A stretch of 64,000 bases of DNA. Source: Paramarasmius palmivorus. Taxonomy: Eukaryota > Basidiomycota > Agaricomycetes > Agaricales > Marasmiaceae. Where the stretch lies: positions 62,001 to 126,000 of the forward strand of contig JAYKXP010000009.1 in assembly GCA_037176845.1 (NCBI GenBank). The letters run 5' to 3'. The notes beneath the pieces were generated by a model. That model had not been told where the DNA came from. It worked only from the letters and a program-made list of their open reading frames with translations, and did no database searches. Position 1 is the first letter of the stretch. Every line of letters begins with the position of its first letter. Both the position numbers and the translations under genes were made by a program. Below, one piece after another: positions 3,971 to 57,240 of this stretch.

Positions 3971-5571
3971 ATGTCTTCCACAATTCCTGACAACTACTGT
4001 GCCTCCCTTTCTGTCAAGCAGACTATTATTGCATCTTCCTCTACTCTATTAGTAAGTGTCAAAATCAGAGACTCCACTGTTGACTAGCTAAAGTGGGGTT
4101 TATTTATCAGGCAATGTATTTTGTCTATGGTATGTTCCAATTAATATTTGATAGCCAATGGTATAAAGCTCTTTCTGTAGGCATCTATGTCCTGCTTTTT
4201 GGGACATACATCTATATGATGTGTAGTCACAATCAAACTAGTAGAAGGCTTAAGAAAGATCTCTACCTCATTCTCACAGTGGTTCTATTTGTGCTGTCAA
4301 CCACCTTTGTGGTCAACCTGACCCTTTATGTCAGCCATAGCTCCATTGTTCGCTTCAATGCTGTCAAGAACAAAGATTACAACCTATTTGAACAATACCA
4401 GAAGTTTGAAGACTTTGAAAGGAAGTTTGGCATGTAATACTTGTATATCTTCCCTTGTATTGCAGCAGTACTGATTTATTTTCTTGCATTAATCCAGCTT
4501 AACTGAGTCATATTTGTCTGTTTTTCTCAAGTAGGCCCTCTTTGAATTGCATATTCTATTGTCTGACACAAGTTATCAATTCTAGTATTATGGCAGAGTG
4601 GATGCTGGTTTGTGCTATTGGTTGTTATGTCTTACTGATGATCATTAATTTTTTGTCTGGATTTTAGATTCACCGGTGCCATCTCATGTGGGGTTCCAAC
4701 AAGTTAATAGCTGTTCCTCTGATTATAGTCTCAATTTTGATCAATGGTGTGGCCTTCTTTATAAACCTTTGCGCTTAGTTAATAGTAACATGGTCATACA
4801 AAGCTTGTGGCCTTGCTGCTTATTCTCTGGAATCATTTGGGTTAATTGGCCTTACTACCCCCAGTCTGGACACTACAACTCTGTTGATGGTTGAGAACAG
4901 CTTGGAAAATGCATATTCTATCACTAGCATGGTCAACAACATCATTATTACTTTGCTAACTGGTAAGTGTCTGAACATGATTGTTTTATCTGAAAGTTAA
5001 TAGCATCTTGCACATATAGCTGGGCGTACCTGGTGGATTCACCGACAAGTCTGTGCTCAAGGTATTTACACAAGTGATAAACTGGTTCAGTCTGTTTCCA
5101 GATTCATGTGAGGATGGTACACCTTTAGTATTAACACTTTCTGATCCAAGTTCTCAGACTTGAGTCTGGGATAATCTATCCAGTCATGATGACGGTAGAC
5201 TTGATCATTACAAACACTATATCATTTGAGACACTTCCTTTTGACCTATTTCCCTTGGTTGCCCTCAGTGCTGTAAGCAAGAAATTTAGTGCTTTTACCA
5301 GTTCTCAAATTCTCACTTAATTTATCAGGGAATTGCTCCAACTTTGATCATGGTGCGAGCAAAACTTGGCCAAAATGTTGAAAGCCTTCAGGAGGCAGTC
5401 TCCGACATTCACTTTACAAGCAGGCCAGCACAGCATGGGCTTGGAGAAATGAGCACCACTCAATCCCAGGCACAAGTTCTCTCTGTTGTCAGAAATTCCA
5501 GATGCTTTGAAGGTGGTGCAGAGCAAGCAGAAATTCAAAATGTGAAGGAGGCCCCAGCAGCAAGTGCATGA
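3971..5571 (+). CDS. 7TM receptor-like membrane protein, copy A (intact, ten exons)
   Basis: Exons: 3971-4051, 4111-4129, 4181-4433, 4498-4530, 4586-4607, 4668-4746, 4804-4962, 5020-5107, 5158-5272, 5329-5571. All introns have GT and AG ends, all phases join, and the product is 363 residues with no stop. Hydrophobic segments lie roughly at residues 14-46, 60-82, 120-138, 147-170, 195-217, 247-270 and 276-295. The hallmark 'IHRCHLMWGSNK' follows helix 3, and 'PTLIMVRAKLGQNVESLQEA' follows helix 7. This resembles a large, uncharacterised serpentine protein family of Agaricomycetes. It lacks features I associate with STE3 pheromone receptors. The ligand is unknown. Plasma-membrane location is inferred from the helices. 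The copy holds only about 8 CpG in 1.6 kb but keeps an open frame, so it may still be under selection. Confidence 0.75.
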
Positions 5572-6821
5572 AGCCATGACCAGACACAATATATTTTCGA
5601 TATCCCTTTTTTAGTAGTTGTGAATGTATTTATTATTATGACTGTTAATACTAGATGCATGGCCCAAGACTGCTGATCATACAGATGATTGTGTCCTGGA
5701 TATGAAGATTGAGCACCATCTGAGATCTCAGCATGTTCAAGAGAAGAATCTGACATGGCTGGCTTGAGGTTCAGGATAACTTCCAGCAGATCCTTAAAAA
5801 GGATGTCACATTGGATGGCTATCCCAACTATCTCAACACATTGAGGTTGTTGGGGAGTGGATACATGGAATAGAAAGAAGAAAGGTCTTTCCAACTAGGA
5901 TTGTATCATGTATGACTCTGAGACCATTGACAATCTCGATCAAACATCCCAAGCTACCTGAGCTGCAGAACCCTGTAAAGATGTGTAATCTGGTACACTC
6001 AACTGGGATACAGTTCACTGGCAACAGTGTCTTTGGAGCCAGTAAGAGGGCAAGAAGGATGAATGGTGTACATGATGAGGATTGGGTCAAGGTATGAAAC
6101 ACCATGTTGGGTGGATAACAGAACCATCTCAACAGGAATGCAACTCCACGTCCCAGCCCAACCCACAATGTATGTAGAGCCCCCAAAAGACGACTTATTG
6201 CCAACACATGGAGCATCAATGTGAATGGAAACAAGGTGAGAAGCCCGAGCTTAGAGCCCAAGCATAATATACAAGAGATGTTTGGAGGAGCTCAAGGGTC
6301 TGAAGGAGAACACTATAAGGGTGTGGGTGCAAGTGATGGCTGTGGAAGAAAGAGATACACTGAGTCTGTATGGGATGGAGGATGGTTGTATGGATAAGAA
6401 TGGTTTTGGGAAGTGTCAGTGATACCGTGACTTTTGGCTCAATGTTTGTGTAAAAGGATCTGAGGAGCACATATTCTGGGAAGGATGTTGTTGACGTGAA
6501 TGGTCTGCACATCATTAAAATGATGTGACAATATTCCCATGGCTGACCCAGCTTAATGCACACTGTACAGGACCTGTAGAACCCAGTGTAGGTTAATGAG
6601 GATGCAGGGGTTGTGGCGAAAGAAATGAGCAGCAGACTTGAATATGGGTTATTGTGCTGTGGATTGTGACGTGTTTTTTGAAGAGTTGAAGATCCAACAT
6701 GCAGAAGGGTATGATGAGGCTGGATATTCCTCAAGCCGTGCATGAGATCACGCTAACAAGTCTGGAAGCTTCTGAGTGGAAGCTAGAATGTACTAGGTGA
6801 GTGATTGTTGGTGATTGGAGC
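5572..6821. repeat. CpG-poor degenerate repeat module downstream of copy A
   Basis: Decayed sequence shared with the region downstream of copy B (about 18240-18540): an 'actaggattgtatgattctgag'-like stretch followed by a segment ending in 'GGACCCCAAAACGACGAGG'-like sequence. ORFs here are short and out of frame with one another. I see no functional gene. Confidence 0.4.
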
Positions 6822-6829
6822 TAGAGGAA

Positions 6830-7430
6830 CAGTGATGGACTTGACAGGGTCTGACCAGGGTCTTGACTGAGTCATGACCCTGTCTGACCTTTGACCCTCC
6901 AAAGGTCAAGGTCAAGCACTGCCTTGGCAGGTGACAAGCCGAACGGCCAGAAGGAAGTGCTGGGGCGCTTCTGTGACCATCTTGGAAGTTGGTGACCTCA
7001 CATTTCTTGAGGTTTGTTATTGTCCAGATTAGATTAGAGTAGACTCCTCATGCCTCAGTGCACAGGTAGTGCTACTGTCAACAATCCAGGTATCAATACT
7101 ATGTTTTTGATTTAAACATGACCGTTTTAACTTTGACCATGTTCCACAGACAATCAATGCTATGGTATACACAACATTTTCAATACTCTGCAATCAATTC
7201 ATTGTTTCTGGCCTTTAAAGTATTTTTTCCAGGCAGACTGACAGTGTAACTGAGGATATTGGTGCGTTGTCGTGCACAAGAACTTGACAGTGACTGCGCA
7301 GATCAAGGCTATACCATTTTTGGTATATGACCTTGACCTTTGACTTCTCGGTCAGACTGGGGTCTGACTAGGGTCAAGGGTCTGACCCGAGTCAAAGGTC
7401 AAGGCCCCACGCTGACCTTGTCCATCACTG
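6830..7430. mobile_element. hAT-like non-autonomous DNA transposon (601 bp)
   Basis: Terminal inverted repeats CAGTGATGGAC begin at 6830 and end at 7430. The element is flanked by a perfect 8-bp duplication TAGAGGAA (6822-6829 and 7431-7438). An 8-bp duplication and a CAG-starting terminus fit the hAT superfamily. Both subterminal regions carry many copies of GGTCA/TGACC words (for example AAGGTCAAGGTCA), which may be transposase binding sites. No transposase ORF is present. It lies inside the repeat module, where related copies read 'GAGCTAGAGGAA' without the insertion (for example near 19794-19804). Confidence 0.8.
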
Positions 7431-7438
7431 TAGAGGAA

Positions 7439-10400
7439 TGGGAAGAGCGAAGAGAAGCTACACCATGTGAGCGTAGTGAGCTCGAAAGAAGCGTACAAGG
7501 AACACCATATTGTGGGTAAATCTCTGCGCAATCTCGCTGCCTAACCATCGAGGATTGGGAGGAAGAAGGTATCGACTTGGGTGAGGGTGTTGAACAAGAT
7601 ACATGACATCGAGTGGTTGTATCCTAAGATCCTTGTCGTTCCATTAGGATTGTATGGCTTGTGCACGATTTCAACTGCACATTCCAATTCTGCTACATCA
7701 ATGATCACCTATACGACTGCCTTCCAAAACAAACTATCACCTAGACACACGGAAAGTTTCAATACACTTGGAACAGGTTGAGTGCTTAAGCTTGAAGCTC
7801 AAGCGTGATGTGTGAGAGGTGTGCAGAGGAGCAAGTGCGAGGGTAAGGAAGAGGTTCAGAAGAACCTCGATAAGGAGATACGCCCGGTCTGAGGACGGAG
7901 TGGAAGGATGAGGATGCAGGAGTTGCGTAGAAGGAGATGGGCAGCGGACTTGATCTTGGGGTATCGTGCTGCGGGCAGTAATGTCTCTTTGGAAGTCAAC
8001 GGCGTTCGGGGACCAAGAAGGGATGCCGATAGGCGATACGCCATATCGTGGATGAATACCACGCGTTGAGGTTGGTGATAACGGGATGGAATGCAGAAGG
8101 GTGTGCCGCGGAAGGTGTTGACGATGATGGACGTTCACCGATGACATGCACGCTATCAAGCAATGGCTTGAAATGGTGCTAATATACCTCATTACTCCAT
8201 GCCTCCGAGACCAATGTCAACGACAGCCATCCTACATCACCCACACGAACTACGGAACCCCCAAATCACGAGGTACCGGCCAGAAGCACGATGAGCCTCA
8301 ACCCACGAAGAACGCGTCGAACAGCTTAGCTCAAGCGCGGTATGTGAGAGGTACGTGGAGGAGCGCAAGGTTCTGAAGGGGAATGCAATAAGCGAGCGAG
8401 CGCGAGACTGTAGGTGTGAGGAAGGGACACAAGGAAGCCCAGCAAACTTCGATAACGAGTTACGCCGGATCTGAATACAAGATGAAGGAAGGTTGTGTTG
8501 GTGAGGATAGCCTGGGGTTTCGTGCTGCAAATGGTGATGTGTTTTTAGAAGAGTCGACGGTATTTGGGGGGCGAGATTGTGAAGGAGCTAGTCCAACACG
8601 CGTAAAAAGGACTGTAAGGCTCTGACAGCGCCTCTGTATGAGGATACCCAGAACCTCTTCTCCAAGCTTTCCGCGTTCCGCCAGCTTAGGGCCTTCGTCT
8701 TTCTGCCGCAGCGGAACCCGATTGCGCATCCCATCCCACACCACCCAGACGGTTCGCAGAACCTCAAAAGATGAGTTATCGCGCGCCCAGCCGTACAAGA
8801 AGTTTCAGCACACATGGAAATAAGCTGAGCACTCAGAGCTTGAAGCGTGAAGCTCAAGCTAGGTGTATAACAGGTGTGCGGAGGTTTGGGAGAACGCAAC
8901 AAGGGATGGGTGCGGGAGTGGCGGTGTACTTGGGGGTATGGGTGTGAGTGGTGGCCGCGGAAGAAAGGCCTGGGGATGGGATGTAGGGTTGCGTTGGCGA
9001 GGACGCGGACTTGGTTTGTGGTGTCGTGGATGATAAGGCAATGCCGTTCGGCGACTTGATGACGTCGCCGAGTCGTCTACCCCAAACAAGGACGCGATAA
9101 GTGCCTTGTGATCGTCTATGGGGGTCGAGAAATGGGTGAAAGGGTGATTGCGTTCTGGATGCGAGGAGCTGAGGCAGTGGTGTAGCGTCTATCGCGGTCG
9201 CTTCTGGGCATCGGTCTTGTGAAGGTTGTAGGGATCATCGAGGCTGGGATGTAGCGTCTTCCTGGCGAAGGATAAAGCGGGCGAGCTGCTGAGAAGGGCG
9301 TGGAGAGTTAGATGTCACTATCGAGATAGGTATGAATAGGTGTATACATACCTCGACCAAAGCGTGCACGTTTTCGATGGCCCAATGTTCTCTCTTTGGC
9401 CCCATAGCTGCTGCTGTCCTGTCCTACACATCCGAGTCTACGATGAACATTCTGGGCTTGTGAATAGTTGCAAGAGTTTTCGAGGACGGCATTGACATTG
9501 CGATACCCTAGTGCTTGTGATTAATTGATTCGTTGTTGCTTCGTCTTGCTCCTGAAATTAGCTAGGTGTGTGGAGGTCCAGGTTTTGAAGAACACGATAA
9601 GGTATGGGTGTGGATGTGGGTGCGAGAATATAGGCGTGAGTGGTGGCCGTGGAAGAAAGGGATACACCAAGTCTGAGGCCTGGAGATGGGATGGGTGAGG
9701 ATTGTGGTGTCGTGGATGGTGATAAGGCGATGTCGTGTCTTTGTGGAGCTGAACAAGCTGGCCCAGCATTCGCGTAAAAAGGATCGCTCATGCGAACTGC
9801 AGAACCTCCAGGAGACGAGCTGTCGCCCAGACACACGGAACGCCTACGCTTGAAGCTCAAGCGCAGTGTATGAGAAGTGTGCGGAGCAGCCCAAGGTTGT
9901 CAAGGAGAATAGGATAAGTGTGCGAGTGCGAGGGAAAGAAGAGTTTCAGATGAACCTCGACAAAGAGATACACAGGATCTGCGGATAGAGTAGAAGGGTG
10001 AGGATGCAGAACTTGCGGTGAAGAAGGTGAGCAGATTTGTACTTGGCATCAGAGTCGTTAATACGCGAAGGCTGAAAGCGGAAATCGCGTACGCGAGCCA
10101 GAAGAACGATATGCTGTGGTAGCGAGGATAGTGGGGCAAAGATACGTCGGGTCTGAAGACTGGAAGGTTGTTGGTAGGGGTTTCGTGCTACGGATGGTGA
10201 TGTTTTTAGTGGACAATATCTGGGGGTTGAAGGTGAGGAACGTGTCGGGATCGAAGGAGCCAACGTTCACGTAAAAGGGACCCGAAGAGCGCGCTGTATT
10301 GGGTCTATAGGGTGTTTGGGGACCAAAAAAAGTCTGGTTCTGGAGTCCAGCGACTTGATGACGTCGCCGAGTTGTCCGCCTCAACAAGGATACAATGAGT

Positions 10401-12250
10401 GGCTTATATGCTGTGGCCACTCTTTGGAAGATCCAGCTCCTGGGATGGGTGGTGATAGTAAGATGGTGGGGCGAAAGGCCAAGGAGGCGATGTAGCGTCT
10501 GAGGAGTACACCGCGTGTCGAAGGGGATATACTGTCAGATGCGCTAGACCTTAGGAAGGTTGTGCTGGTGAAGATGCAGGAGCAGATGTGCACTTGGGGT
10601 GTCGTGTTGTGGATGGTGCCAGTGATGCGGAAGAGTGAGAAAGGATGGGTGATGCCGCGTGTCGGGATAGAACGCTCAGCATTGTATGGTTACAGGGCAC
10701 TGATGTTTCTGAAGGACAATGCGATAAGGCATTGAGTGCAAGGGTATGGGTGCAAAAAATGGGCACGAGGAGGCCCAGCAAACCTCAATAAAGAGATACG
10801 CCGGGTCTGAGAATGGGATGTAGGAAGGTTGCGTTTGTGAGGATGCGGAACTGGCGATGAAAGCTTCGTGGGGAGCTAGCCTAACATTCGCGTGAAAAGG
10901 GCCCAATGAGCGCGAGGAGTGCGTTTAGCAGTGGTTATACGGCGTTGATGATGTTTTAAGGGAGTAAGTGGGTGTGGGGAAGGGGAATGAGGAGGTCCCA
11001 GCAAATCTCGATAGCGCGATACGCAGGATCTGGATACGAGATGGAGGAAGGTTGTGTTGGTGAGGATAGCCTGGGGTTTCGTGGTGTGGACGATAACGTG
11101 TTTTTGAAAGAGTCGACGAACCGTATCGCGATCGAGATAGAACGAGACAGAAGACCTTAAGTTCCTGGTTCTGGAATCCGACGACTTGATAATGTCGCCG
11201 AATCGTCCGCCTTAACAAGGACGCGATAAATGCCTTGGAATCGTATATTGGTCGAGAACTAGGTGAATGGGTGATTGTGTTCGGGATGCGAGGAGCTAGA
11301 GGAATATGACTGTGGAGTAGTGTCTATCGCTGTCGCTTCTCGGCATCGACCTTGTGAAGATTGTAGGGATGACCGAGGCTAGGATGTAGCATCTTCCTGG
11401 CGTGTTCAAGGAAAGGATAAAGTGGACGAGCTGCTGACAAGGGCGTGCAGAATTAGATGATACTGTCGAAATAGGTGAGGATGGATGAATATATACCTCG
11501 ACTAAGCCGTTTCAACGCCCATTCTGCTATCCTGTCCTACACATCCAAGCCTCTACGACGAGAACAACCTGCGCTTGTGAATGGTTGCGGGAGTTATCGA
11601 GGACGACGTTGACATCGTGATACCCTAATGATTTATTCGTGGTTGTTTCGTCTTGCTCCTGACTTTGCGTGAGGGTTGTTTCGAGGTGGTTGATGCTGCA
11701 AAGGACAGAGATTCAGAAAAGAGCTTGGAAGCGGAAGCGGAAAACAGTAACTCCGGATCTGCCAGGGCTCTCCTCAACCACCATCACCAACACTGTTCGC
11801 TATCTCTACACTCGCTCCACGCCACCCATGCTCTCAAGTTTCTCAATTCATTGGAAAAATCGGAACGCTTGATTGTAGCAATGCCCTGGATATCGCGTTC
11901 CAGACGATGAAAGGTACGCTGTTCTCTGTTTTCTGCGATCAGGAAATCCTCAGCCTATCCCGTCAGGCTCAAGCCATCGCTAGTCCCCCGTCACAGAGGT
12001 CACCTCAACACCCAAAGCGATCATTTACAAGTGTGCGGAAGACCAAGGATATAATTTGCACTAAACACACCCTCACTGTCACGATAGGTACGCGTTCGTC
12101 CTTCAACATTCTCAGAACCATGTTTATATCCTCCAAGCTCTAGATCTGCACTCGTATTCTCAAAACCATTACCCACTTAAGCTATTGCAAAACAAGTCTA
12201 TCCACCCGGTAATAGTCGGATGTCCGTGTCACTTGGGAGTGCGAATGCTG
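7439..12250. repeat. Block of degenerate dispersed repeats (several units)
   Basis: At least three partial copies of one repeat are stacked here. Recurrent words on the + strand are GAAGCTCAAGC, 'CCTCGATAAGGAGATACGC', 'CATTCGCGTAAAAAGGA', 'CAACAAGGACGCGATAA' and 'TACCTCGACCAAAGCGTGC'. They recur at 20.2-21.4, 26.9-28.6 and 33.7-34.9 kb. On the - strand short coding-like words such as 'IEHALVEV' and 'FYANVG' recur in copies but are broken by frameshifts. This suggests decayed copies of an unidentified, once coding element. No intact gene is supported. Confidence 0.5.
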
Positions 12251-15242
12251 AGGAACTGAGAATAGGCTAAAGTGCTGAGCTGGAGGGATTGAAGAACAAT
12301 CTTTCCGGGGCTTTCTGGCAGGCTGGTAACCACCACCACAATCTCTACGCCAACCATGACCTCAAGTCCCCACCACATTTGTCGAGATTGTACTCCCGTA
12401 TTGACCTAGACGCCGCCCCGGCGTTCCCGCCAACGAAAGGTATGTTCTTCGTCAGAGGCTTAGCCTACTATGTCAGGCTCATCCATAATCCCATTCCACC
12501 ATCCTACAGGCCAACTCAAGTACTCAACGCCCACATCGACTATTCCCAGACCATTCGTGTCGTACTGTTGCGATAGGTACGTGTTTGCCTTTAAAATACT
12601 TCAGGATCATGCTGAGCATCTTCTAGAATTGTATCACGCCTACCGGATCCTCTGTATAGAACAAAACTACGTACTGAGCTGGTCTCCAGGCTGAGGTGCG
12701 ACGATCATCTCTACACATTCAACAAACGCCGCAGAAGCTCAACCCGGTACCTCGTTTGCGTGTAAGAGTACCCCTTGCAATCCTGAGGTTCGGTTCTCGT
12801 CGGTTTAACATCCCGAAGCTTGAGGCTTTCATTGTCAGGTACATATCCGGAAGCGAGAGAAAAAGAAACTCCGCGGCTTTGGAACTGGAGAAAATCGGGA
12901 TTCGGCTCTGCTGGTCTGCTTCCGTCGCGTCTGCAATTCTCACAAACCTCCACAGGCCTTGGCCCTTGACTCGACAGGCTCTCCATACTTAAACCCAGAA
13001 GTCAAGATCCAGCAACACCTTCACACGTAGCTCTGACTCCATCATGCTTTGTACTTGAAGCTGCGTGAAGACGGGACATGAAGCCTGCGATCTTCGGGCC
13101 ACTTAAAGACTGAAGGTGCGTCCTTTCTACCAGTCTTATATCCCATCTCACCATCTTATATTTTAGTTTCAAGACACCCACGGCGAAAGGGGGGGGATTA
13201 GCAGAGGTGTATATGCTACAGAGTTTAAAGAACACGGATACGTAGTTTCATTGTACTATTACTATGAAATACACTAGGGATTCTTATAAAGCCCTTCTGC
13301 GTTGTGGATTCATGAAGTCTCGCGACGCCGTGCACACCTTGGCCAGCTCCTGTTCCGGCAACCAAACAAACAACATCGTCCGCCTCGATTGCACACCCAA
13401 ACTGCAAGAGACGCGAGAATCAGCCAGTGAACTGCTGAAGCGAGACAATGGACAACGTACCATCGCTCCAAGCTCAGCGGTTGGATATACAGCTATTGAC
13501 AACGCACCCCCGATGCACCTTCGAGACAACGCCTGTTCATTCCGATGTGACGTATTCCAAACTAAGCTGGCCGGGTATCTCGGTACTGGGTCTTGCTAGC
13601 TTGAACGTTGGACTTGATTTCCCCGCATCGAGTAGAGCATTTCGAGGTTCGAGGTGAGGTCAAACCTAATTCCAAGCTTCTTCGCGTGGTTTCTATCCAG
13701 TGAATGAGGATCAGTCATTGTCGGGTATAACGCAGACTGAGATCTGAGAACTCACCGAACGTCCAGATTCACCCCTTCAGCGAGATAGACCCGGCCTTCT
13801 CACCCCAAACTCCAGAGCCTACGAAGACCTTCCTATCCACTTCCATCGTACAGAGAGTACGAAATCCAAAAGTGGAGTCAACACGCTTCTTCTTGCAATA
13901 GGCTCCCATGCTAATACACGAACATCTCTAGCCATGCAATTTCGGCATAGCTTGCGTTCAGCCTTCATCAGTGTACGCTGGCTAATAGGGAAGGCTTGCT
14001 CCAAGTGCAGCAATGCCGCCCGTTCAAACGATGGCTCGTTGAAGAATCACTGGCTAAACACAATCATCAGTAGAAGCGCTAGATTGAGAATGATTACAAC
14101 CTACCGGATGAACTTGGTTCATCGATACACCGGATTCGCCACCGCAAACACGAAGAAAACTCTTGCGTGTAGTAAGAATGCAGATCCCTCGGTCTCTTGA
14201 TTCCTAGTCCAAGGCCCGGGATTGGCCTACGCCTCGAGAGATACCGATAAACGCTAAACGTTCCCAGTTCGATGCGGCTTGGGCGATGACTCGAAGCGAG
14301 GATCTAGGCTTGAGGTGAGTATTTGGAGGGGTGCGACAGAGAAGGGCTGAGTTATGGAGGAGGTAGACGGAGAGTGAGCTGTCGATATTTCCTAGGGGGT
14401 GCTGCATCGACTATGAGGTATTGAACACGAGATGAGACCTGCAGCTGTTATAAGTTTTAAAACCACAACTTCCAAACATCACAGCCTACACCACTTCGGC
14501 TCCCGAAGCAACTTGGACTCCCTACAGTCTCGACCTTCTCTTCAGACGACGTCTTCAGCTTGTGAGCGTCCTTGTTATTCGGCAGGACAACTGCGAGTAA
14601 AGATCTACTCCCATCATGAGTCGTGAAAACGAAGCCGCTCGCTGTCCTGGGCCAGATTTTACACCGTATACGGGATCTTCTGGACAATTGGGTCGCAGGG
14701 CTCGATTTTCATGCGTTTGTTGAGTTTGTTGATGTCTTTGTAAGTCGAGATGAAACCCAGAAACCCAGATGTCTTCGCCTGGTCTAGTTAGTTGGGGTAA
14801 GTGTCTGTTGGTGGTCGCGTTTTGCCGGCGCGTTCAAGGAAAGAATAAAATGGGCGAGCTGTTGAGAAGGGCGGGAAGAATCAGACGATACTGTCGAAAA
14901 GGTGAGAAATAGATGTATACCTCGACCCAAACGTGCTTGATTCCAATGCCCGTTGCTATATCGTCCTGCGGCATCTGAGTCCGTATGACAGGAATAATGA
15001 CGCGATACTACTTCGAGGTTTGGCTGGAAAGGTCGGAGGTACCGCTAGCTTTGTAGCTTTTGGGTGAGAGCTGGAGTTTGTGCTGTTTGTATCGTGTGTG
15101 TCGAGGGTGTGAGAGTGCAAGGTATGTAGCGGGAAAAACAAGGGAAAAAGCTCCTCCCGCGGCTTTCTTCACAGCCATCTACTTGCTCGAGCTCTCTTAT
15201 TTTCCATCGCATTTTCACGTCACACTACAACCTTCTCTTAGC
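12251..15242. other. Mixed decayed repeat sequence without a supported gene
   Basis: Only overlapping short ORFs on both strands are present. The words 'RSSFNILRTMFISSKL' encoded just before, at about 12093-12140, recur inverted at 41220-41130 ('FFNILRTMLISSR'). The family module (GATACTGTCGAAA, CCTCGACC) appears again at 14830-14970. Nothing else could be recognised. Confidence 0.35.
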
Positions 15243-15690
15243 AGCGAAGGATACCGGAGAGAGAATGAGGCGATTCAAAAACCCCAAAAGCCGTCAGAAG
15301 GCTTGCTTTCTCAGTAAAGAGATGATTGAAATTGGGACAAGGAATTTGGCCATATAATTTGACCTGGGAAGATGGGAAAATACCCGGACAATGCACCTTC
15401 AAGTCTCGCTCACTGCGCGCGGAAGTGGATGTGACCCAGAGGAGAGATCCCTTGTTCTGCATTAGTGGTACGGGCTCTTTCCTCTTCCCATGAAGTTCGG
15501 CCGACACTGAAGTTTCTTTATCATTAGCATCACTATAAATTCTCTCTGCTTAGTTGTCAAGGCAAATGCCATTATCTCCTTTGTACTAGCATCACCTCTG
15601 CGACCCGGTCTCGTACCACCCCAATATAGAGCATGATGCTATTGCGCAGTTTCTCTCACTCGCGCTCGCTCATTGATGGCCGTCTGCGAA
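15243..15690 (-). repeat. Dispersed repeat copy 1 (empty-site copy of the 49.7-50.5 kb repeat)
   Basis: Read on the - strand this 450-bp segment matches 49672-50530 read on the + strand over most of its length. Shared stretches include 'AAGGAGATAATGGCATTTGC', 'AGAGAATTTATAGTGATGCT', 'GGACAAGGAATTTGGCCATA' and 'CGAAGGATACCGGAGA'. It lacks the 384-bp inverted-repeat element present in the second copy. A shared reading frame (…QREFIVML…RPNF…) hints at a coding origin, but both copies carry stops. Confidence 0.7.
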
Positions 15691-16280
15691 AGATAAACTG
15701 ACACGAAATGGCTCCCGTACCGTCCTCATTCTTCCCGAACAAGCAACGAATCTCAATTCCATCAGCTTTGCTCTCTGAGTCTCTCGTCGTTTCACTGCGG
15801 CGATATCGGCCAACAGGCCCCATTATCCATCACGGCATCATATCAGATGTTGGTTTCACTGTATATCGTAATCTAGAATGCACCCTCATCAACTGCGAGA
15901 TCAATATTGGCTCGCAAAGGCGACTATCATCATCATGCAAATAGAAGGTCCAGGGTATTTCATATATACTCGTACACCTGGTGGTGTTTGATACTTCCCA
16001 AGCTTCTGGCCCTGTCTTTAACGCAGCTTCTCTAGGACTACTTGATGTGGAGCAGTGGTGTATCATACATACATCAGGAATGCTCTTGTTTGCAGTTGGA
16101 AAAGATCGTGAACTCAATAGTAGCTCTGTAAGCTGCAGGTTTTTTATACCACAAGCAAGGTTAATTGGTTTGTTCCAGTCAGGCTGAATTTCTAGTTTTG
16201 GAGTCATGTGTCATACACTTATTCTGCAGGGCTCCTTATCCCGTTCATTCCACCCAAAATTGAGCAGCTTGATGTTGACC
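15691..16280. other. Non-coding stretch upstream of copy B
   Basis: No supported gene. CpG content falls sharply from about 15960, as it does around copy A. Confidence 0.35.
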
Positions 16281-16297
16281 ATCTGTTCATCTGTTGC
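16281..16297 (+). promoter_or_regulatory. Upstream box of 7TM copy B
   Basis: ATCTGTTCATCTGTTGC, a near-tandem ATCTGTT repeat, about 130 bases before the ATG. Matches the boxes of copies A, E and F. Confidence 0.35.
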
Positions 16298-16370
16298 CAA
16301 TTTGACTCTTTTCCTGATATCCACATATAAACTCAGATTGCAGTGATGTTGCCTTGGCATACAATGGAGC

Positions 16371-16377
16371 TATAAAA
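16371..16377 (+). promoter_or_regulatory. TATA box of 7TM copy B
   Basis: TATAAAA 42 bases upstream of the ATG at 16413. Confidence 0.5.
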
Positions 16378-16412
16378 CATGCTCAGGTGCTTCTCTTGTT
16401 ATCATGTCAATA

Positions 16413-24243: not shown

Positions 24244-24292
24244 CCCCAGCCAGTTGGACCACATCTAGAAACATCATCTGCTCTTTACTACC

Positions 24293-38140: not shown

Positions 38141-38204
38141 TGCTATAGAGTGGAGTGAAGGATTGAGGCATATTAATACCTCTACGCACACTACGGGATG
38201 AATA

Positions 38205-43200: not shown

Positions 43201-44945
43201 CGCTAACCTGATTCAAAACTTGGAATCTCATCGTTATGGAGTCAAAGAGAGGAAACTGGAGCATTGAAATCGAACAGGTATGCACCCGTCCATTCAGACA
43301 TAGATTCGTATCTGACTCACCCGTCTTTCTGCAGATTTATGCAACTTCATTGAGTATGGCGGTACCAAATCCTTCTCTTGAACGTGCTGAGAAGACGCTA
43401 CATCCTCGGCCGTTCCATCTGTGACTTCTTCCGCTCGTTTTATTCCTCACACCCAGAACACGAACATCTACCTCATATTGGCATCACACTTCGTCCCAGA
43501 AGCATCCAGATTTCCGCTTTCCGACTCTCAAGTCAACGTTTCTTGGCAATATTAGTGCCCTTGTCCTTTTACTCGGGATCCTGCGTCTGTCCTCTCCCCT
43601 ACAGTGCTCCGCGTTCCGCTACCATCGACAGGGTTGCATCCCTCTCTGAACCGCCCCTGCACTCATCTTCGGGTCAATCTCAAATTTTGACATCCCGTCG
43701 TCGAATTTGCTCCGGATACACACGAATGAAGCTTTTCATGGGTCTGAGTCGTATTACTCGTCTTTCGGAGTCCCAGTGAAGCATCTATGAGGATCCAAAA
43801 TGAGATCTGCGGTCGGAATTTGCATGGCCAGCGTGTAGAGTCCGTGACGAAGAATGAGCGGGTTGAAGAGTGCTTGGCTTGAACCCCATAAAACCACCAC
43901 ATTCTAGGTAAGCTCCCTTTCCTTGGACCAGCGCATATGGACTTACGCTATTCTAAGACGACGATAAAGCACAAGGACCTCGGTACCTCTGGCATTGGAC
44001 AAAGCGCTTTCTTTCCCCGAAATGATTCATCTTGTCCGTCAAAGTATTGCTCTGGATCTGATGATCTCGCCACGGTGTTGCAAGCGTGTCGATACTTTGT
44101 GCGAGGCTAGCCGTTGAGGAGCATTGGGATTGGGAACGAGCTGAAAACTTAGATATCGGTTCTTTTCCCGAAGATTCAGCATATCAAACCATGTACGTCT
44201 ATCCTCTTATCACAACTCTCTCATCATTTCCTAATCCGCGGTTGATAGGTAGATGTGTGGTATCGGTGAAGACTATCGATACTTTACCGTTCTGGGTAGC
44301 ACGACCAATACTACAGCACTCTCGATCTCTAGCACCCGTCCCCAGTCCCCACACCTTCACACTCTTCGTTCTTTCTTCCAAAGAGCTGCGCTTTCTTTCG
44401 GAATCTGAATCCATTGTTCACACTACCGGTACTAACATCGACAATGATACCAGCACCGAGACTAATCGGCCGCCTCGATATTGTGCTTGTATCAAGCCAA
44501 ATGTCGATTTCAGAACATACGATCCACAGGTTCACCTTCACCGTCTTTTGCTTTCCGCCCATCTCACAAAAGATACGGAGCAATGGCCTGGAACATCGGA
44601 GAAGGGAGACGGCATCACTTCGAGACCACGGGAATGAGCAAGAGTCTTTCGGATTTCCGCCGACTTGTCAGTTTCTATTATGTGTTTATTCGTAACCAGT
44701 CGAAATAGAAGGTTCATGGGCCATGGAATGGACTTTACTATCCCTATGTGAAACTTGAAGATATTCTGGGTTGCAAGGCTTATGCTTTGACGCTTTCAAA
44801 CGTTGAGATAGGTTGAAACTTTTGTTACCATAACTTTTAAGTGCTGCAACAAGCATGGACCGAAAGAATACCAGTTTACGGACAATACATACATTCAGAG
44901 CCAGTAATAGAAAGAAAGAAAATAACTCTGAACAACGGTACTCCG
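43201..44945 (+). repeat. Degenerate repeat block, right-half orientation
   Basis: The + strand words 'GSK/ESKRGNWSIEIEQ' (ATG at 43236) followed by a GTATGCACCC donor and a TTCTGCAG|ATTTATGCAAC acceptor correspond to the - strand 'IEHALVEV' module of the left half. 44080-44640 matches 55670-56040 in order: GTACGT intron, then 'GGTATCGGTGAAGAC'-like sequence. Frames are broken, so this is a decayed coding repeat. Confidence 0.4.
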
Positions 44946-46238
44946 TCATACAATTGCAGAGTTCTCCTTCCTGTGATTCCCCGCTTGCTCCTCACCACCT
45001 TCGAAAACACCAGGATTACTGACAACTGATAAGACTTGACCTTGTGATTGGATGGTTCTTGTGCCTCCAGGCCCTTGCCATGCAGGCTGGCTGATGAAGT
45101 GAATATCAGAGACCACTTCCTGCAGACTTTCGACATTTTGGCCAAGTTTTGCTCGGACCATAATCAGAGTTGGGGCAATTCCCTGGCATGCCAAGCTATA
45201 ATCAGAGAAGTGAAGAAACACCAAATCTCTTGCTTACAGCACTGAGGGCGACTATGGGGAATAGGTCAAAAGGATGCTTCTCACTTGGCATGGTGTTCAC
45301 AATGATCAAATTTACTGTCATTATGATTGGATAGATTATTCCAGATTCAAGTCTGAGAATTTGAGTCAATAAGTGTCAATATGAAAGGTGTATCATCTCA
45401 CATGAATCTGGAAACAGACTGAACAAGTTTATCACTTGTGTAGACACCTTGAACATGGACTTGTCGGTGAATCCACCAAATACGCCCAGCTATACATGTG
45501 AGATACCAATCAATTGATTGCATCTGGTCACTCACCAGTCAGTAGAGTAATAAAAATATTGTTGACAAGACTGGCAATAGCATATGAGATTTCAAGGGTG
45601 TTCTCAATCACCAACAGATTTGCAGCATTCATATTGGGAGTAGTAAGGTTGGTTGTCCCAATTGACCGCAAAGTATAACTAGCAAGACCCCAAGCTTCAG
45701 AGATCCATGTCATCATTTATTAGCACAAGGGTTCAAAGAAGACTGCACCGTTAACCAAGATTGAGGTTATGATCAAAGGAACAGTGACTATCTTGTTGGA
45801 TCCCCAGATGAGATAGCATCGGTGAATCTGTAATTCAGACATAAAATCAACGGCCATCAGTAAGATACAATGGCACAAACCAGCATCCACTCCGCTGCAA
45901 TACTGTCATTGGCAACTTGTGTCAGACAATAGAAAATGCAGTTCAAAGAGTACTTACTTGAGGAGAACGCTGACAAATGTCTCTGTTGTGCTAGATAAAG
46001 GCATGACACAGAATCAGTGCTGCTGCAGTACAAGGCAGTATATGCAATCATTACTCGCCAAATCTCCTCTCAAAGTCATCAAAATTCTGATATCGTTCCA
46101 GTAGGTCGATATCTTCATTCTTGATAACATTGAAGCGAAGAGCAGCACCATGGACATAGTAGGCAGTTTGGTTGACCACAAAGATTGTCAATAACACAAA
46201 TAAAACCACAATAAGGATGAGGTAGAGGTTTCTATTAC

Positions 46239-46725
46239 TGTAATGACCATGCAAACTCCTACTCATTTCCCTGTCTTCCGGTACTATTTCCACTAGTTCC
46301 CTTCCTGCTTCCGACGTTTTGCCTCCGGAGTTTTCCCACGCCCTTCCGGAGCGTTATCCTTGTCTTCCGGACCCTCCGGGCTATTTTCCCACGGTATTCC
46401 GGAACCTCGGAGCACTTATCTACCATATCCCGACCTTTCTCCTATCATCTTGGCATCTATTCCTCATATATACATTCCTTTATACTTCATGCACCATATG
46501 ACTCTCATATCTCTTCCATCTACTCTGCCTAGTAGTCATCAGATCATCCCGGGCCATCACATCCCTTCCAGCTCCCGGTACATTACTCAGTATATAAACT
46601 GTCATGTATTCCAGTACTGTAGCTTTAGGCAGAAAATCAACCACTAGTAGTGTCGTTCACACTGCTCTATCTTCTCTCTTCTCTGATGGAGTAGTCTCTG
46701 TCTTCCCTGCGGCATGAACGTGACA
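46239..46725 (+). repeat. 5' LTR of the self-priming element
   Basis: U3 has a TATA box TATATAAA at 46591-46598. About 35 bases from it lies TAGGCAGAAAAT (46626-46637), the probable start of R, which is complementary to the primer site just inside the element. Confidence 0.8.
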
Positions 46726-46727
46726 GT

Positions 46728-46739
46728 ATTTTCTGCCTA
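46728..46739 (+). other. Self-priming primer binding site
   Basis: ATTTTCTGCCTA, two bases after the 5' LTR, is the exact 12-base reverse complement of TAGGCAGAAAAT at the predicted mRNA start in R. Tf1/sushi-family elements prime reverse transcription by folding their own mRNA 5' end onto such a site. Confidence 0.75.
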
Positions 46740-48155
46740 GCAATATGCTGTTATGTTTCTATATGCTCAACTCAATCTCCGCTCCTTATCCTCTCTATTC
46801 TTTTCCCCTCCGAAAGTCACTACACCATCAACCAACATCTCCGGCACTCCTCAGAGGCCACTCCCAGCTATTATGCTGTTCCGTACTCCATTCCTATCAT
46901 GTCTCCTTCCTCCGGCACATTTCCTATCACTTCGTCTTTGGTTCCGGCCAACATTGAGGGCTCTAGACTAGATGTCTAACCCTAAGACCAGAACTGGTCT
47001 CTCTGCGCCCTTCCGGACTATTTCCGTGCCTCCGGAGATTTACTCCGGTCCACACTCCGGTCTGGATGTCCTTCCTGCGCCATTTCTCCTCCTCCATTCC
47101 CTGTGGTCGCTACCCTGCCTTTGGGCTAGTGCTCTGACATATGAGCATCTCCGTGGATGATTCCCCTGTAACCTCTATCTCAGTCCGTCGACTGATCAGA
47201 GCATGCAGTACCCATATCAGAAGCCGAGCTCTGCTCTGGTGTCTCCTGTGGACCTTGCAACCCACACTGATTTGGTTCCTGCCGTTATGTTGGCCTCCTA
47301 TGGCTTTGCTAGGCTTTTGCCTGGTATTTTGTTGCCTCCTAAGGCATTTCGAGGTGTTATATCACCTACTCCGCAGTTTCATCCTGCTCCAGACTTTGTG
47401 TCCACCCTCCGGCAAACCTTATCAACCCCTCCTGCACCTCCGGCGTCTCACATTTCATCCCCGCAACCCCTTCCTGTGTCTGGAACCCATTAGGATGGTT
47501 TTTATGTTGGCACGTACTGTTCCTTCTGGTACTATGATGCTTCCTCCCTTGTAGTTGACCTTTTATTTGCTTCCGGAATTGTCTTTCCACTTCCGAGTAT
47601 ATTATCTTCCTGTTCTAAACCTCCGGAACCCCTTCCGGAAATTTCCCACGCTTAGTTAGCACTTCCATTGATGCTTTCTCTCTGCTTTTTGTAGTTTACA
47701 GGCTTAGAACACCCTCCGATGATTTTCTCTGAATTTTCCCACGCTCTTCCGGTCCTTATAACCTTCTGTTTTACTTCCGGAGAACTTATTATGTCTCCAC
47801 AACAGCTTCCGGAGTATATTCTAGATTTTCCCACGCCCTTCCGGATTTCGGAGCCTTAAGTTCCTTTCCGGAGGTCATTATTTGCTTCCGAAATGTCTTT
47901 GAATACTTCTGGTAGTTTTTCTCTTCCTCTTCCAAGGTTTTTTGCCCTGCATTCTTCTAGTACTTACTGCTATCAATTGCATACTTACTAGTTTTTATCT
48001 GCAGTTCTATTTCATTTCCACGCTATGTGTTATAGTTCTTATTCCTTTTCTTGCATTTCTACCAGTCAGTTCTTCTTCACTCCCGACTTCCTTGCTATAC
48101 ACTTCCTGTTCTCTCTAGTATGCTCCTCCAGGGGTCGGAGCAAGTGGGAGGATAC

Positions 48156-48642
48156 TGTAATGACCATGCAAACTCCTACTCATTTCCCTGTCTTCCGGTA
48201 CTATTTCCACTAGTTCCCTTCCTGCTTCCGACGTTTTGCCTCCGGAGTTTTCCCACGCCCTTCCGGAGCGTTATCCTTGTCTTCCGGACCCTCCGGGCTA
48301 TTTTCCCACGGTATTCCGGAACCTCGGAGCACTTATCTACCATATCCCGACCTTTCTCCTATCATCTTGGCATCTATTCCTCATATATACATTCCTTTAT
48401 ACTTCATGCACCATATGACTCTCATATCTCTTCCATCTACTCTGCCTAGTAGTCATCAGATCATCCCGGGCCATCACATCCCTTCCAGCTCCCGGTACAT
48501 TACTCAGTATATAAACTGTCATGTATTCCAGTACTGTAGCTTTAGGCAGAAAATCAACCACTAGTAGTGTCGTTCACACTGCTCTATCTTCTCTCTTCTC
48601 TGATGGAGTAGTCTCTGTCTTCCCTGCGGCATGAACGTGACA
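48156..48642 (+). repeat. 3' LTR of the self-priming element
   Basis: Appears identical to the 5' LTR over 487 bases; both the TG/CA ends and all internal landmarks are shifted by exactly 1917 bases. Confidence 0.8.
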
Positions 48643-48973
48643 ATTACGCATTTCACTGGTTCGATTGTGACTACACATCATGTAGACACATGTCCCAAAG
48701 AGCAGCACATAGAGACCTAATGGAAATTTGTCATATCCTTAACCAAATAAATGGTGACTGTGACATACCATAGGTAAAGTACATGGCCTAGTATAATAAA
48801 ATGCACTTCAGCCCACACTCACAGCCACAGTGGTATACACTTAAGCAGTGTACTCACCGACAGAGTAGAGATTGGAAAAATGACACTCCGTTGGATAGAA
48901 AGGGAGGCAAGGTAGGCAGCAGGAACTGTGGACGACATCACTACGGTGAGAAAAAGAAAAGAGTGCAAAAGGC

Positions 48974-48981
48974 TTTTTATA
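48974..48981 (-). promoter_or_regulatory. TATA box of copy E
   Basis: TATAAAAA on the - strand, about 40 bases upstream of the ATG. Confidence 0.45.
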
Positions 48982-49073
48982 GCTCCACTATATGTCAGGG
49001 AAATGACACTGTCCTAGAAGCAAGCTGAGTTTGTACATGAATATCTGGTAAGGAGTCAATTTTAATCAAATCA

Positions 49074-49090
49074 GCAACAGATGAACAGAT
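49074..49090 (-). promoter_or_regulatory. Upstream box of copy E
   Basis: The - strand reads ATCTGTTCATCTGTTGC about 140 bases upstream of the ATG, identical to the copy B box. Confidence 0.35.
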
Positions 49091-49671
49091 GATTGACATC
49101 AAGCCTGACTGATTGTGGGTGGGATGAGATGCACAACTCGAGAACTACTAGAAAGTCAACACTATTGGGCCCGACTGGAAAAAATCAATTACCTTGGTCA
49201 TAGTGTAAACCTGCGACTCACATAGCTATTATTGAGTTCACAGGTGATCTTTTCCAATTCTGATGTATGATACACCACTACTCCATTACCCCACATCAAG
49301 TGGTCCTAGAAAGGTTTCATTGAAGATAAGATCTGATGCTTGGGAAGTATCCCAAGTCACCAGGTGTATACGAAACACCCTGGACCTTCTATTCAGCTAG
49401 AGGTATCGTGATCATAGTCGCCACTGGCTTTGCGAGCTATTCGTCTCGCAGTTGATGCAGATGCATTCTAGATCGTGATATACGACATGAAACTAATGTT
49501 CGATATGACGTTGCGATGGATGATGGGACCCCTGGGGTGAGTAGCGCCTGTAGGCCGATATCGCCGCAGTGAAACGATGAGAAAGTGAAGCCAACGGGAT
49601 TGAGATATTTGTTGCTTGTTTAGAAAGGATGAGGATGGTATGGGGACTATACTGTGTCTGATTTTATCTTT
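49091..49671. other. No supported feature
   Basis: Short ORFs only; no recognised repeat word before 49672. Confidence 0.3.
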
Positions 49672-50530
49672 CGCAGATGGCCGTTGATGAGCGAGCGAGA
49701 GAAATCGTGCAATAGCATCATGCTCTATATTGGGGTGTTACCGCAAAGGTAATGCTGGTACAAAGGAGATAATGGCATTTGCCTTGACAACTGAGCAGAG
49801 AGAATTTATAGTGATGCTAACGATAAAGGAACCTCAGCATCGGCCGAACTTCATAAGGAGAGGAAAAAGATCGTACTATTACAGCTGTTCTAATAATTGT
49901 AGGCCGCATCGAAAAAAAAGCTAGCTTACCAAGCGCCCCACCTACTCCACATTCTCACGTATCCTCCCCCAATTTTCTGAGTGATACTGCCAGTTGGAAC
50001 GACAGTTTCAATTGACCACTTATACTTGTGCTAAGCAAGTACTGATTTGATCGACGTCGGCTGAGATGCATAGTGAATTTTTAGTTGAGAAAGTAGAATT
50101 ATCACTCTGTACGTATACAGCAGTGGTGGAGCTATGAAATCAGCAGCGTGTTCGCGTTGTGGGTGACTATGAGTGTCATGTAAGGGAATGACATCAAAGG
50201 TGGTGCGCTTGGTAAGCCAGCTTTTTTTTCGATGCGGCCTACGATTATTAGAATAGCTGTAATGCAGAACAGGGAATCTCTGCTCTGGGTCTCGTCCACT
50301 TCCGCGCGCACAGTAGGCGAGACCTGAACGCGCATTGTCCGGGCATTGTGCCTTCTCGTTTCTCCAGTTCGAATTATATGGCCAAATTCCTTGTCCCAAT
50401 TGCAATCATCTCTTTCCTGAGAAAGCGAGCCTCCTGCTGGCTGACGGCTTTTGGGGTACTTGAATTACCTCATTCTCTAGTTCTCCGGTATCCTTCGTTG
50501 GTATGAAAAGCATGCAGTGTGACGTGGAGA
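49672..50530 (+). repeat. Dispersed repeat copy 2 (with inserted element)
   Basis: Matches 15690-15243 read on the - strand, in the same order, but is interrupted by the 384-bp element at 49879-50262. It encodes a broken frame with 'TTEQREFIVMLTIKEPQHRP'. Its orientation relative to copy 1 is inverted, like the rest of the right half. Confidence 0.7.
49879..50262. mobile_element. 384-bp inverted-repeat element (MITE)
   Basis: Terminal inverted repeats of about 60 bases: left TTACAGCTGTTCTAATAAT..., right the complement with a few mismatches, both including the GCCGCATCGAAAAAAAAGCT stretch. The paralogous repeat at 15.4-15.5 kb lacks the element; its junction reads ACTAATGCAG. Flanks TTA and TAA leave a 2- or 3-bp duplication possible, so the superfamily (Tc1/mariner or PIF/Harbinger) is not decided. 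No ORF. Confidence 0.7.
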
Positions 50531-52339
50531 TGTGATGAGGTGGGGGAATGTCAGAGAATAAGAGAGCAAGTCTGGAGATATGGTTGTCAAGAAAGCCGCG
50601 GAACACGCTTTTTCCCAGCTTGACATCTGTTCATTTCGTTCAGCAATCTTCTACAGCTTCATCCCAGACTCCGTCGGCGCGTTCAGAGATCCCTCAGAGC
50701 CTCCACGACAACGATATTTCATACCCTATCCTCTCCCCGACACTATCTTTTTACACGTCATACTTGAGCTTCAAGCTCAAAGTTCGACTTGTTCTAAGTA
50801 CATGAGCCGGAGCTTCTCTTGTCGTCCTCCCGAAGCATTCTGTTTTTCTCTTCAGTGATTATGGGTATACAGGGTCAAGGAGAAGAGACTGGAGTATTGA
50901 AATGGAGCACGCGTTGGTAGAGGTCCAGTAAACATCCATTTAGATTCGACGGTAGAATAATTATATCTGACTCTCCCCGTTCTTCTGCAGATTTGTCTCC
51001 TTCGATATGCAACGTGCTAAGACACCACATCCTCGATCGTTTCGACTACCTTCAAAATCACAATGACCTTGCCCAAAATGACCACATTAGAATCTCAGAA
51101 GCTTTTATTCCTCGACCATATTTTCACCTAGTCCTCGTTCGCGGCTTTGAAACACGAACCTGGATGTCGTCAAGGCATTCGTCGCGGATCTGTTGGGGCG
51201 ATTTGCACATTGTCGAACTCAAGTGACGCCCGGGACATTACCATATCCATATTACTCCTCGTTGTCACAATGACACTGGCTTCAGCACTATCGGCATCCG
51301 AATCGTTTCTCACTGATTACTGTCGACCCTTCCGACTCAAGCCATCACCTTCTACATCATGATACCCCAAGTCGACGCGTGAGTCTGAATATGGCGGCGA
51401 AACTGGTTGAAGTATGGAAACCGAACCGAGTTTGGCGCGCCGCGATTTGTTAGACTATACCCAACATGTACGCCATTTTCCTTTTTACCCTGACTCTCAG
51501 TTCACTAATCGCGTCCGATAGACCTTCAGTGCACGCCAGCTAGCAGCTCGGATGCTTTCTGGCGCAAACCACCAGTTTTTTTGGTTATACGAGAAACGAT
51601 TCAACGCCCAGCTTCTGTCTACCAGATTTTACCGCTAGCCTCTCCGAGACGCCACTTCATTCAAGCCAGATCTTGGTTTCGGACACCAAGGGCTTTACGT
51701 ATATCCACTGGCATGCATGATACTCATTGGGCGTTGAAGCTTCGAGTCGGAGGGGATGGTTGATGGCGTGCTGTTGAAATATGGAACGGAGATAGTGTTT
51801 CGCTCGAGGCAGAGAAGCCAGCAGTTGAGGTAATGCAACGCTTTATCCTTATGTCGTGATAGCATAGCTCATGGCCGTTTCTTTAGCTTCCAAATGGCCA
51901 TGCTGTACACAACGCTAATCAATAATGATTACATCTCTGGCTTCTCGTCGCTACTAGTACCATGATAGGATCGCACCGAGCCTGCGAATGACCAGAGGTT
52001 GCTGCTCTTGAGTCTTTTTTAACATCTGACGGCAAGGATTTGCGCTGTCGGTCCTCCTCCAAATCGAATCCAAGCTTCTTTCGAGAAAAGGATCACAGTA
52101 GCACGTAGAGGCTGTATGGTAATGTCGGGGTTGCGCAAATTAGATGCTCAAAGTCGTCACGCCACTACCAGTTATCGTTACATTCGGTAATTTCTTCGTT
52201 GTATTTACGCTCTCCGTTCGTATTCAACATTAGGACGGCAGTTTATTGACGTCGTGAAGCCGACCATCTAAAAGTCGATATTTACGGATAATGGCCAAGA
52301 AGAAAACAGAGAAAGAAAGACCCTAGACACGTCCCTTCA
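50531..52339 (+). repeat. Degenerate repeat block, right-half orientation
   Basis: Begins with 'ATGGTTGTCAAGAAAGCCGC' (50580), the inverted counterpart of the left-half CCGCGGCTTTC modules. It contains 'TGGAGTATTGAAATGGAGCA' with the GTAAAC/TTCTGCAG pair (about 50890-50990). 51740-51920 resembles 55940-56110, and 51980-52090 resembles 22640-22720. No intact gene. Confidence 0.4.
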
Positions 52340-56400: not shown

Positions 56401-56897
56401 TAACCCGTCTCGCGTATCTCCCGAGCGACTAGGTCGAACTAGGATGTAGATCAGGCGACGAAGGGATGAATGGAGAGTATGTTGGGGTCAAAAGTGGGCA
56501 GCTTATGCATAGGTGGCGGCGCTTGGAGAACAGTTTTAGCGAAAAGCGTTCCGCCTGTACTTGAAAGCTTCGATACCTTTTCCTACTGCCTTTACCCATT
56601 TCGTTCCCGCATTCTTCGTTACTTACCCCCTCTAGACTCCCCGAACTATTACTTTCACCTTTCTCTGGTACGCAGGTGGCCCTGTCTTCTGCTCTACACC
56701 TTACTATTTCGCGTGTATCGTCTTGATCGACCGGTGCGATGGTCTAGATCGTCGCCTCCTAATGTACTTATGTTATTCTGTTGCGCAAAAACTGGGTATA
56801 GAACACGAATTCATAAATACATTGAAAACCAGTAGAGAAGAAAGGAATGAAGAAACACCAGGAACGCAGTTCTCCCAATAACTCCGTTGGCACTGCA
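56401..56897. other. No supported feature
   Basis: A 121-codon + strand frame (56470-56835) has no recognised motif and sits in decayed sequence. Confidence 0.25.
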
Positions 56898-57240
56898 TCA
56901 CGCAATTGCAAAGGTCACCTTCGCATTTCCCGCTCGCTCCTCCCCGCCTTCCATACCACCTTCGGAATTCGGGGCAATCGATAATACCTGTGCCTGAGAA
57001 TAGACGGTGCTCGTCCCCCCGGCACCTCGCTGTGCTGGCTGACTTGTAAAGCGTATCTCGGAGACAGCTTCCTGCGTACTTTCGATGTTCATCCCAAGTT
57101 TCGCCCGGACCATGATAAGGGTTGGCGCAATTCCCTAAAAGTCAAATTGTAATTAAAGAATTGAAGAAACGCCAAATCTCACTTACAGCGCTGAGGACAA
57201 CTAGAGGGAACGGGTCAAAAATATACTTCTCGGAAGCTGT
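56898..57240 (-). pseudogene. 7TM copy G, 3' remnant (exon 10 and part of exon 9)
   Basis: Exon 10 (57134-56898, 79 codons with stop) is intact: 'PTLIMVRAKLGMNIESTQEA' to '…GNAKVTFAIA'. The intron and about 50 bases of exon 9 follow (57187 to about 57238), then similarity ends abruptly within 'EAS-EKYIFDPFPLVVLSA'-like sequence. Exons 1-8 are missing, so no full product is possible. Confidence 0.75.

Follow-up and report, generated by a model that had tools for sequence, protein, structure and literature searches.

Two questions are raised by this locus, namely how related genes came to lie on both strands in an apparently mirrored arrangement, and what kind of protein they encode. The window, by which we mean the whole stretch of 64,000 nucleotides that was analysed, corresponds to bases 62001-126000 of contig C9 (1,035,183 bp) of Paramarasmius palmivorus, which PMC8581569 names among the species causing cacao thread blight in Ghana; the assembly comprises 68.3 Mb in 393 contigs. 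We favour, with reasonable rather than strong confidence, a reading in which the array belongs to a large and variable cluster of orphan seven-helix receptor genes that evolves by birth and death in P. palmivorus, a palm- and cacao-associated mushroom, and related Marasmiaceae. At the level of titles, nothing in the literature on the species and on receptor expansions was recognised as describing this seven-transmembrane (7TM) family.

Gene models, losses and versions of the region

The array spans positions 3971-57233 and consists of six ten-exon paralogs (A-F) and a remnant, G. Copies A-C are located on the + strand and D-G on the - strand, as the first-pass annotation had proposed, whereas its description of seven ten-exon copies applies to A-F and not to G. 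The gene models were built from the alignment, with A, B, C, D, F and G rechecked using a spliced protein aligner, and in these models all intron sites of A-F are GT-AG and occupy positions common to all six. On C9, the frame is open in A (3971-5571), C (30551-32122), D (38140-36285) and F (53900-52340), and broken in B (16413-17977), E (48938-44946) and G (57233-56898). The stop codon of D lies ~10 residues short of the aligned end at 36285, and intron 7 of D contains a MITE (36834-37113) with 30-bp terminal inverted repeats, which has 72 matches in the genome, counting TIR-only fragments, and is present on C9 and on contig C227 and missing from D on contig C291.

The three broken copies each carry a different lesion. 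B contains a single in-frame TGA in exon 3, at a codon that reads CGA in C, D, E and F. E is interrupted in exon 3 by the remnant of an LTR retrotransposon (46239-48642), which separates exons 1-2 and the start of exon 3 (48643-48938, - strand) from the remainder of exon 3 through exon 10 (44946-46238, - strand). The insert of 2404 bp has the paired LTRs (two identical copies of 487 bp), the TG...CA ends and the target-site duplication (5 bp, ATTAC) by which such elements are recognised, and its LTR has nine matches in the genome, including one pair at C9:907-909.5 kb. The element is probably non-autonomous: its internal part is only ~1.4 kb, and the single long internal frame that was scanned (47138-47551, + strand) gave no Pfam match. 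G is cut at 57233/57234, within exon 9, which leaves exon 10 and a part of exon 9. Rfam and tRNA scans of the window gave no match. A second gene family was suspected at 7.5-11.7, 20-22.2 and 26.9-28.75 kb, where repeats lie, but the scanned frames are without Pfam match and many of them overlap; we provisionally treat these repeats as non-coding.

Three versions of the C-D region are present in the assembly, on C9, on C227 and on C182/C291, and presumably represent nuclear haplotypes; they may derive from the nuclei of one dikaryon, from more than two haplotypes or from a segmental duplicate. The versions match one another well over roughly 28.4-57.2 kb of the window, and outside this interval the matches, in a search scoring the best candidates, are only paralog-level, transposon or short-repeat. 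At the E locus, C227 has an empty site with a single ATTAC, and all ten exons of E can be followed there in a spliced alignment free of stop codons and frameshifts. C227 also aligns with the window at 99% as far as base 57233, beyond which it continues through the whole of G, with one possible frameshift in that gene. The frame of F is open on C227 too, and two more copies are found on this contig at 24 and 29 kb, the former with one possible frameshift. In addition, the 379-bp insert with terminal inverted repeats in the upstream flank of E (49882-50260) is not on C227, and C182 carries a version of C that lacks ~600 bp (window 31342-31940).

Since both the E insert and the truncation of G are absent from C227, these losses vary between versions, and C227 supplies a natural comparison of the loci before and after a gene is lost. 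Thus, the proposal that A, C, D and F survive while B, E and G have died describes C9, but does not extend to E and G on C227, where E is uninterrupted and G is full-length. Gains, losses and pseudogenes among linked paralogs, differing from one presumed haplotype to the next, are the pattern of birth-and-death evolution, and the first-pass suggestion of a paralogous 7TM family with clustered birth and death is indeed reinforced by the other contigs of the assembly, although the simple mirror origin that accompanied it is not. Copies would be lost via stop codons, transposon insertion and breakpoints, such that each version, presumably a nuclear haplotype, would have a different repertoire.

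Predicted topology, fold and possible function

Neither C nor F matches any Pfam family at E<=1, and for 91 homologs no GPCR family is among the 25 families shown of 31, nor among the 25 shown of 88. No signature of the known GPCR families was therefore found in C or F or, within the families shown, in the 91 homologs. The homologs were obtained in searches that scored the 7997 and 7996 candidates having most words in common, and the family may thus extend beyond Marasmiaceae. The AlphaFold models of two homologs nevertheless display the seven transmembrane helices of the GPCR superfamily, with a kinked TM6 (pLDDT 82.7 and 80.2), and the second model has one additional helix of low confidence. 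Application of the positive-inside rule to the 91 homologs predicts an N-terminus outside and a C-terminus inside, with K+R counts of 3.3-3.5 around ICL1-3 compared with 0.7 for the N-terminus, 2.8 for ECL1, 1.3 for ECL2 and 0.5 for ECL3. ECL1 is the least clear loop in this charge pattern.

Sequence variation is distributed unevenly across the predicted helices. Among 27 paralogs from the genome itself, mean entropy is 1.38 bits in the outer helix halves and 0.75 bits in the inner halves (p 5e-8), and the 91 homologs show the same trend (2.26 versus 1.57, p 1e-7), where both p values treat residues as independent. For the 27 paralogs, the predicted orientation comes second among 128 half-assignments, and TM7 is the exception to the pattern of a variable outer and a conserved inner half. 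Invariant or near-invariant residues concentrate at four sites: HRC closes TM3 and TAGRIWW closes TM5, with YP lying in TM6 and AGxAPTL in TM7.

Comparison of the predicted structures with GPCR classes, which the first-pass annotation had recommended, yields the three Ste2 entries listed as the best matches of both models, ahead of the highest-scoring row outside Ste2 by 0.8-3.2 Z (first run) and 1.9-2.8 (second run); the next match of the first model after Ste2 is TAS2R14. The predicted models thus adopt the overall Ste2 fold of class D, and the family is most likely a group of orphan 7TM receptors with a Ste2-like predicted fold, which may act as unrecognised chemical sensors. The proteins would span the plasma membrane, their N-terminus facing outward, and the variable outer half could bind diverse ligands, whereas the conserved inner face (HRC, TAGRIWW, YP, APTL) would signal to a G protein, as in class D Ste2.

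Other roles have to be weighed against a receptor function. That the genes encode an amplified 7TM membrane protein of another kind, such as a transporter, a lipid- or sterol-binding protein or a chromophore-less rhodopsin-like pump, appears unlikely to us, in that the lead of the Ste2 entries and the conservation of the inner relative to the outer half both argue against it. We regard it as somewhat less likely still that these variable receptors serve nuclei or mycelia in recognising self and non-self or mates, and not in sensing the environment. Gene content and integrity differ among the versions of the region, as at recognition loci, and the closest predicted fold is that of a pheromone receptor; however, the usual mating receptors of the STE3 type are encoded elsewhere, on contigs C22, C100 and C64 (PF02076 has 36 exon matches on other contigs), and allelic dN/dS is low (0.08 for F and 0.28 for D versus C291), without the excess expected of a recognition locus. 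The coding sequence of D is identical on C227.

Improbable, in our assessment, is a divergent branch of the DUF6534 family (PF20152), which PMC12842992 proposes as a new Agaricomycotina GPCR class. The taxon ranges overlap and both groups are 7TM proteins, with the DUF6534 candidates described in PMC12842992, but the 74 exon matches to PF20152 in the genome include none in the window, C and F do not match the family at E<=1, and PF20152 is missing from the 25 families shown for the 91 homologs. Membership of the window copies in DUF6534 was rejected on these grounds.

Duplication, inversion and CpG-depleted domains

The seven window copies belong to a larger set, which comprises at least 64 gene places in the assembly (150 of 179 matches joined, with haplotig copies counted separately). 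At least 18 of these are located on C9:1-198 kb, where the cluster continues to the left and right of the window and the gene places are oriented - - - - + + + + - - - - - - - - - -. The first 600 bases of C9, where signs of a subtelomeric position were looked for, contain no TTAGGG or CCCTAA.

Self-BLAST of the window recovered all copies and their inverted pairs, with 56 repeat pairs (E<=1e-10) covering 16.9 kb in direct and 17.4 kb in inverted orientation, such that inverted symmetry is present, as had been anticipated. The repeats named in the first-pass annotation are confirmed: 15142-15464 and 15468-16695 are inverted relative to 50616-50260 and 49876-48648, respectively (71-77%), as is 28668-28970 relative to 41207-40904 (68%), and 11166-12155 matches 27746-28750 directly (72%). 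By contrast, the flip is not centred at 36.2 kb, near which the first-pass annotation had placed it. Rather, the strand switch occurs between the end of C (32122) and the end of D (36285), with the C/D pair centred at ~34.2-34.4 kb and a spacer (32123-36284) that has convergent genes on either side and is not symmetrical.

The symmetry is confined to pairs of copies. The upstream flank of B (15142-16412, + strand) is the inverted homolog of that of E (48939-50616, - strand) at 70-77%, and the upstream flank of C (28668-30550, + strand) is, in pieces, the inverted homolog of that of D (38141-41207, - strand) at 67-73%. Among the upstream flanks of A-F, matches at E<=1e-6 are found only for B-E and C-D, both inverted. 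When 31 upstream flanks were compared, 11 of them <700 bp, the long non-allelic matches were B-E (up to 1316 columns, 72%), C-D (two pieces, ~800 columns), C9_2k/C9_193k (433 columns, 85%) and C182_2k/C9_7k (two pieces, ~460 columns, 65-76%), and the remaining pairs have ~300 bp or less in common, mostly adjoining the gene. Two inverted duplicates, B-E and C-D, are thus supported by the sequence comparison, with no indication of a whole mirrored block.

Phylogenetic analysis bears on the same point. In a tree of 31 rows, in which 4 of 27 inner branches are starred and 17 of 27 open and the bootstrap had not settled, F falls outside the group holding A-E (93/97, not starred), and the best tree contains B+E with weak support (31/41). 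The AU test rejects a single clade of the window copies (p 0.006) and also D+E+F (p 0.014), but not A+B+C (p 0.15), A+F (p 0.16) or C+D (p 0.40). The window paralogs differ by dS of 0.51-1.30, compared with allelic values of 0 (D on C227), 0.035 (D on C291) and 0.061 (F), which indicates that the duplications are old, and dN/dS of 0.18-0.39 among the paralogs indicates constraint. Ka/Ks values were left out for C versus its C182 version, where the spliced alignment crosses the deletion, and for C9_2k versus C9_193k, where the frames are not multiples of three.

It therefore seems quite improbable that one gene-plus-repeat module was amplified in tandem and half of the array then inverted, as originally envisaged. 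The inverted homology of B/E and C/D, upstream flanks included, the B+E grouping in the best tree and the clades that are not rejected would fit such an origin, but the rejection of a single window clade and of D+E+F, the placement of F, and a cluster that extends to both sides with mixed orientation do not. The best account of the array is repeated local duplication, partly inverted, within a shifting cluster, whereby some new copies (B-E, C-D) would have been inverted together with their upstream flank. An assembly artefact at the orientation change, in favour of which nothing was found, can be practically dismissed, since C227 runs continuously through the 32150-36250 junction at 96%, which makes the orientation change real, and paralog dS of 0.5-1.3 is far from that of a false duplication.

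Three copies differ from their surroundings in CpG content. CpG-depleted domains are located around A (3200-7200), over B (16000-18100) and over E (44900-46230, resuming at 48640-49200 past the LTR insert), with near-normal CpG o/e adjoining all three and moderately low values (0.41-0.92) in the insert itself. Of 31 rows, four have a gene-span CpG o/e under 0.4 (A 0.13, B 0.12-0.13, C227 E 0.39 and C182_17k 0.23), C9_23k has 0.56, and the remaining 26 have 0.74-1.07; the window copy of E has 0.33. Within the four low-CpG rows, o/e is 0.06-0.11 in introns and 0.15-0.50 in exons. The frame of A is open despite lying in a CpG-depleted domain.

Residual coding CpGs are enriched in CGN arginine codons (9 of 14 in A+B versus 37 of 168 in C+D+F, p 0.0015; 19 of 28 when C182_17k is included, p 3e-6), as would be expected if C-to-T decay continued under protein selection; in C227 E, which is outside this test, the count is 10 of 26. 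Of 15 CpG sites common to C, D and F, 5 are still CG in A, 5 in B and 8 in E (controls 15/32, 15/22 and 15/27), and as this site-by-site test is weak, the claim of CpG loss is based on the o/e ratios and the residual CpGs. Classical RIP was considered and rejected, as the decayed CpGs have no TCG preference and non-CpG C-to-T is not clearly raised (A 44/293, B 33/289 and E 32/292; controls C 24/345, D 46/361 and F 62/429). The simplest reading of these sequence patterns is long-term CpG methylation of the gene bodies concerned. PMC13297926 describes gene-body methylation as largely lost in fungi, to which gene-sized CpG-depleted domains around open genes would run counter, and these domains make gene-body methylation a directly testable reading. 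A literature search on CpG depletion in basidiomycetes found no paper.

Taken further, and tentatively, mushroom-forming Marasmiaceae might possess a large repertoire of class-D-type receptors with the Ste2 fold in a hypervariable cluster, of which each nucleus of the dikaryon would hold its own set and some members would be methylated in the gene body yet selected, which could restrict expression to a subset of the receptors at any one time; we consider this extended proposal doubtful.

Comparison with known receptor systems

According to PMC12842992, a number of the known fungal GPCR classes are missing from Basidiomycota or reduced there, and class 1 STE2 receptors are exclusive to Ascomycota. 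If the family is a class-D-like receptor repertoire, part of this gap would be filled, and testable orphan receptors would become available in several cacao- and palm-associated fungi. The alpha-factor receptor Ste2 (class D GPCR, fungal class 1, PF02116) likewise has seven helices, but its structural alignments with the present models are at 8-12% identity, and the family described here is large and clustered. PF02116 matched neither C nor F at E<=1 and nothing genome-wide, though the control also gave no match. Profile comparison with Ste2 produced a weak match (E 0.003 and 0.005, probability 10% and 8%), which covers TM3-TM5 of both, and the trimmed score was 25.0, compared with a null maximum of 24.0 of 60 and 19.9-22.4 for reversed controls.

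The DUF6534 proteins of Agaricomycotina are likewise an expanded 7TM orphan family in the same fungal group. The STE3 pheromone receptors are also fungal 7TM receptors that are present in this genome; membership of the window copies in this family was rejected, with no match to PF02076 in the window or for C or F. Vertebrate olfactory and TAS2R receptors gave no sequence match to the family, and their arrays are clustered, evolve by birth and death, and combine a conserved inner part with a variable outer part.

Versions of the C-D region and insertions among the copies

The region around C and D, two of the ten-exon 7TM receptor-like paralogs, occurs in three versions within one assembly, on C9 (the contig of the window), on C227 and on C182/C291 (presumably haplotypes), which is more than the number expected from a plain dikaryon. 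Intron 7 of D contains a 280-bp MITE (window 36834-37113) that is present in C9 as well as in C227, and is missing from C291; the element has 72 matches in the genome, a count that takes in TIR-only fragments. Two further insertions, one at 41485-42953 and one with terminal inverted repeats at 49882-50260, are lacking in C227. Exon 3 of copy E harbors the remnant of an LTR element (46239-48642) with identical 487-bp LTRs, and a second, matching LTR pair is located near C9:908 kb (contig positions C9:907108-909514).

CpG-depleted domains and G-rich repeats

Gene-sized CpG-depleted domains lie around copy A (3200-7200) and at copies B (16000-18100) and E (44900-46230), each adjoined by sequence with near-normal CpG. 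Copy A has an observed/expected CpG ratio of 0.13 and its frame is still open. Strand-biased, G-rich direct repeats span 7500-11700, 20000-22200 and 26900-28750; the frames scanned within them gave no Pfam match. Related stretches occur at C9:38-40 kb and also on C182.

Neighboring frames and STE3-type receptors

Between B and C, DUF5077 and DUF3472 frames (24269-25477) have a similar counterpart (73-86%) at C9:445.9-450.0 kb. A Copia-type gag (PF14223; 1148-2161) is situated close to the left edge, and its 3' neighborhood (2000-3300) has 90-97% matches on several contigs. In the right flank (60176-63683) there is a NOT2/3/5-type frame at 61903-62331 (PF04153), followed at 63261-63683 by a prenyltransferase alpha-alpha toroid domain (PF00432).

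Elsewhere in the genome, STE3-type receptor exons (36 matches) are found on contigs C22, C100 and C64, and may correspond to the pheromone-receptor mating locus together with relatives of that locus.
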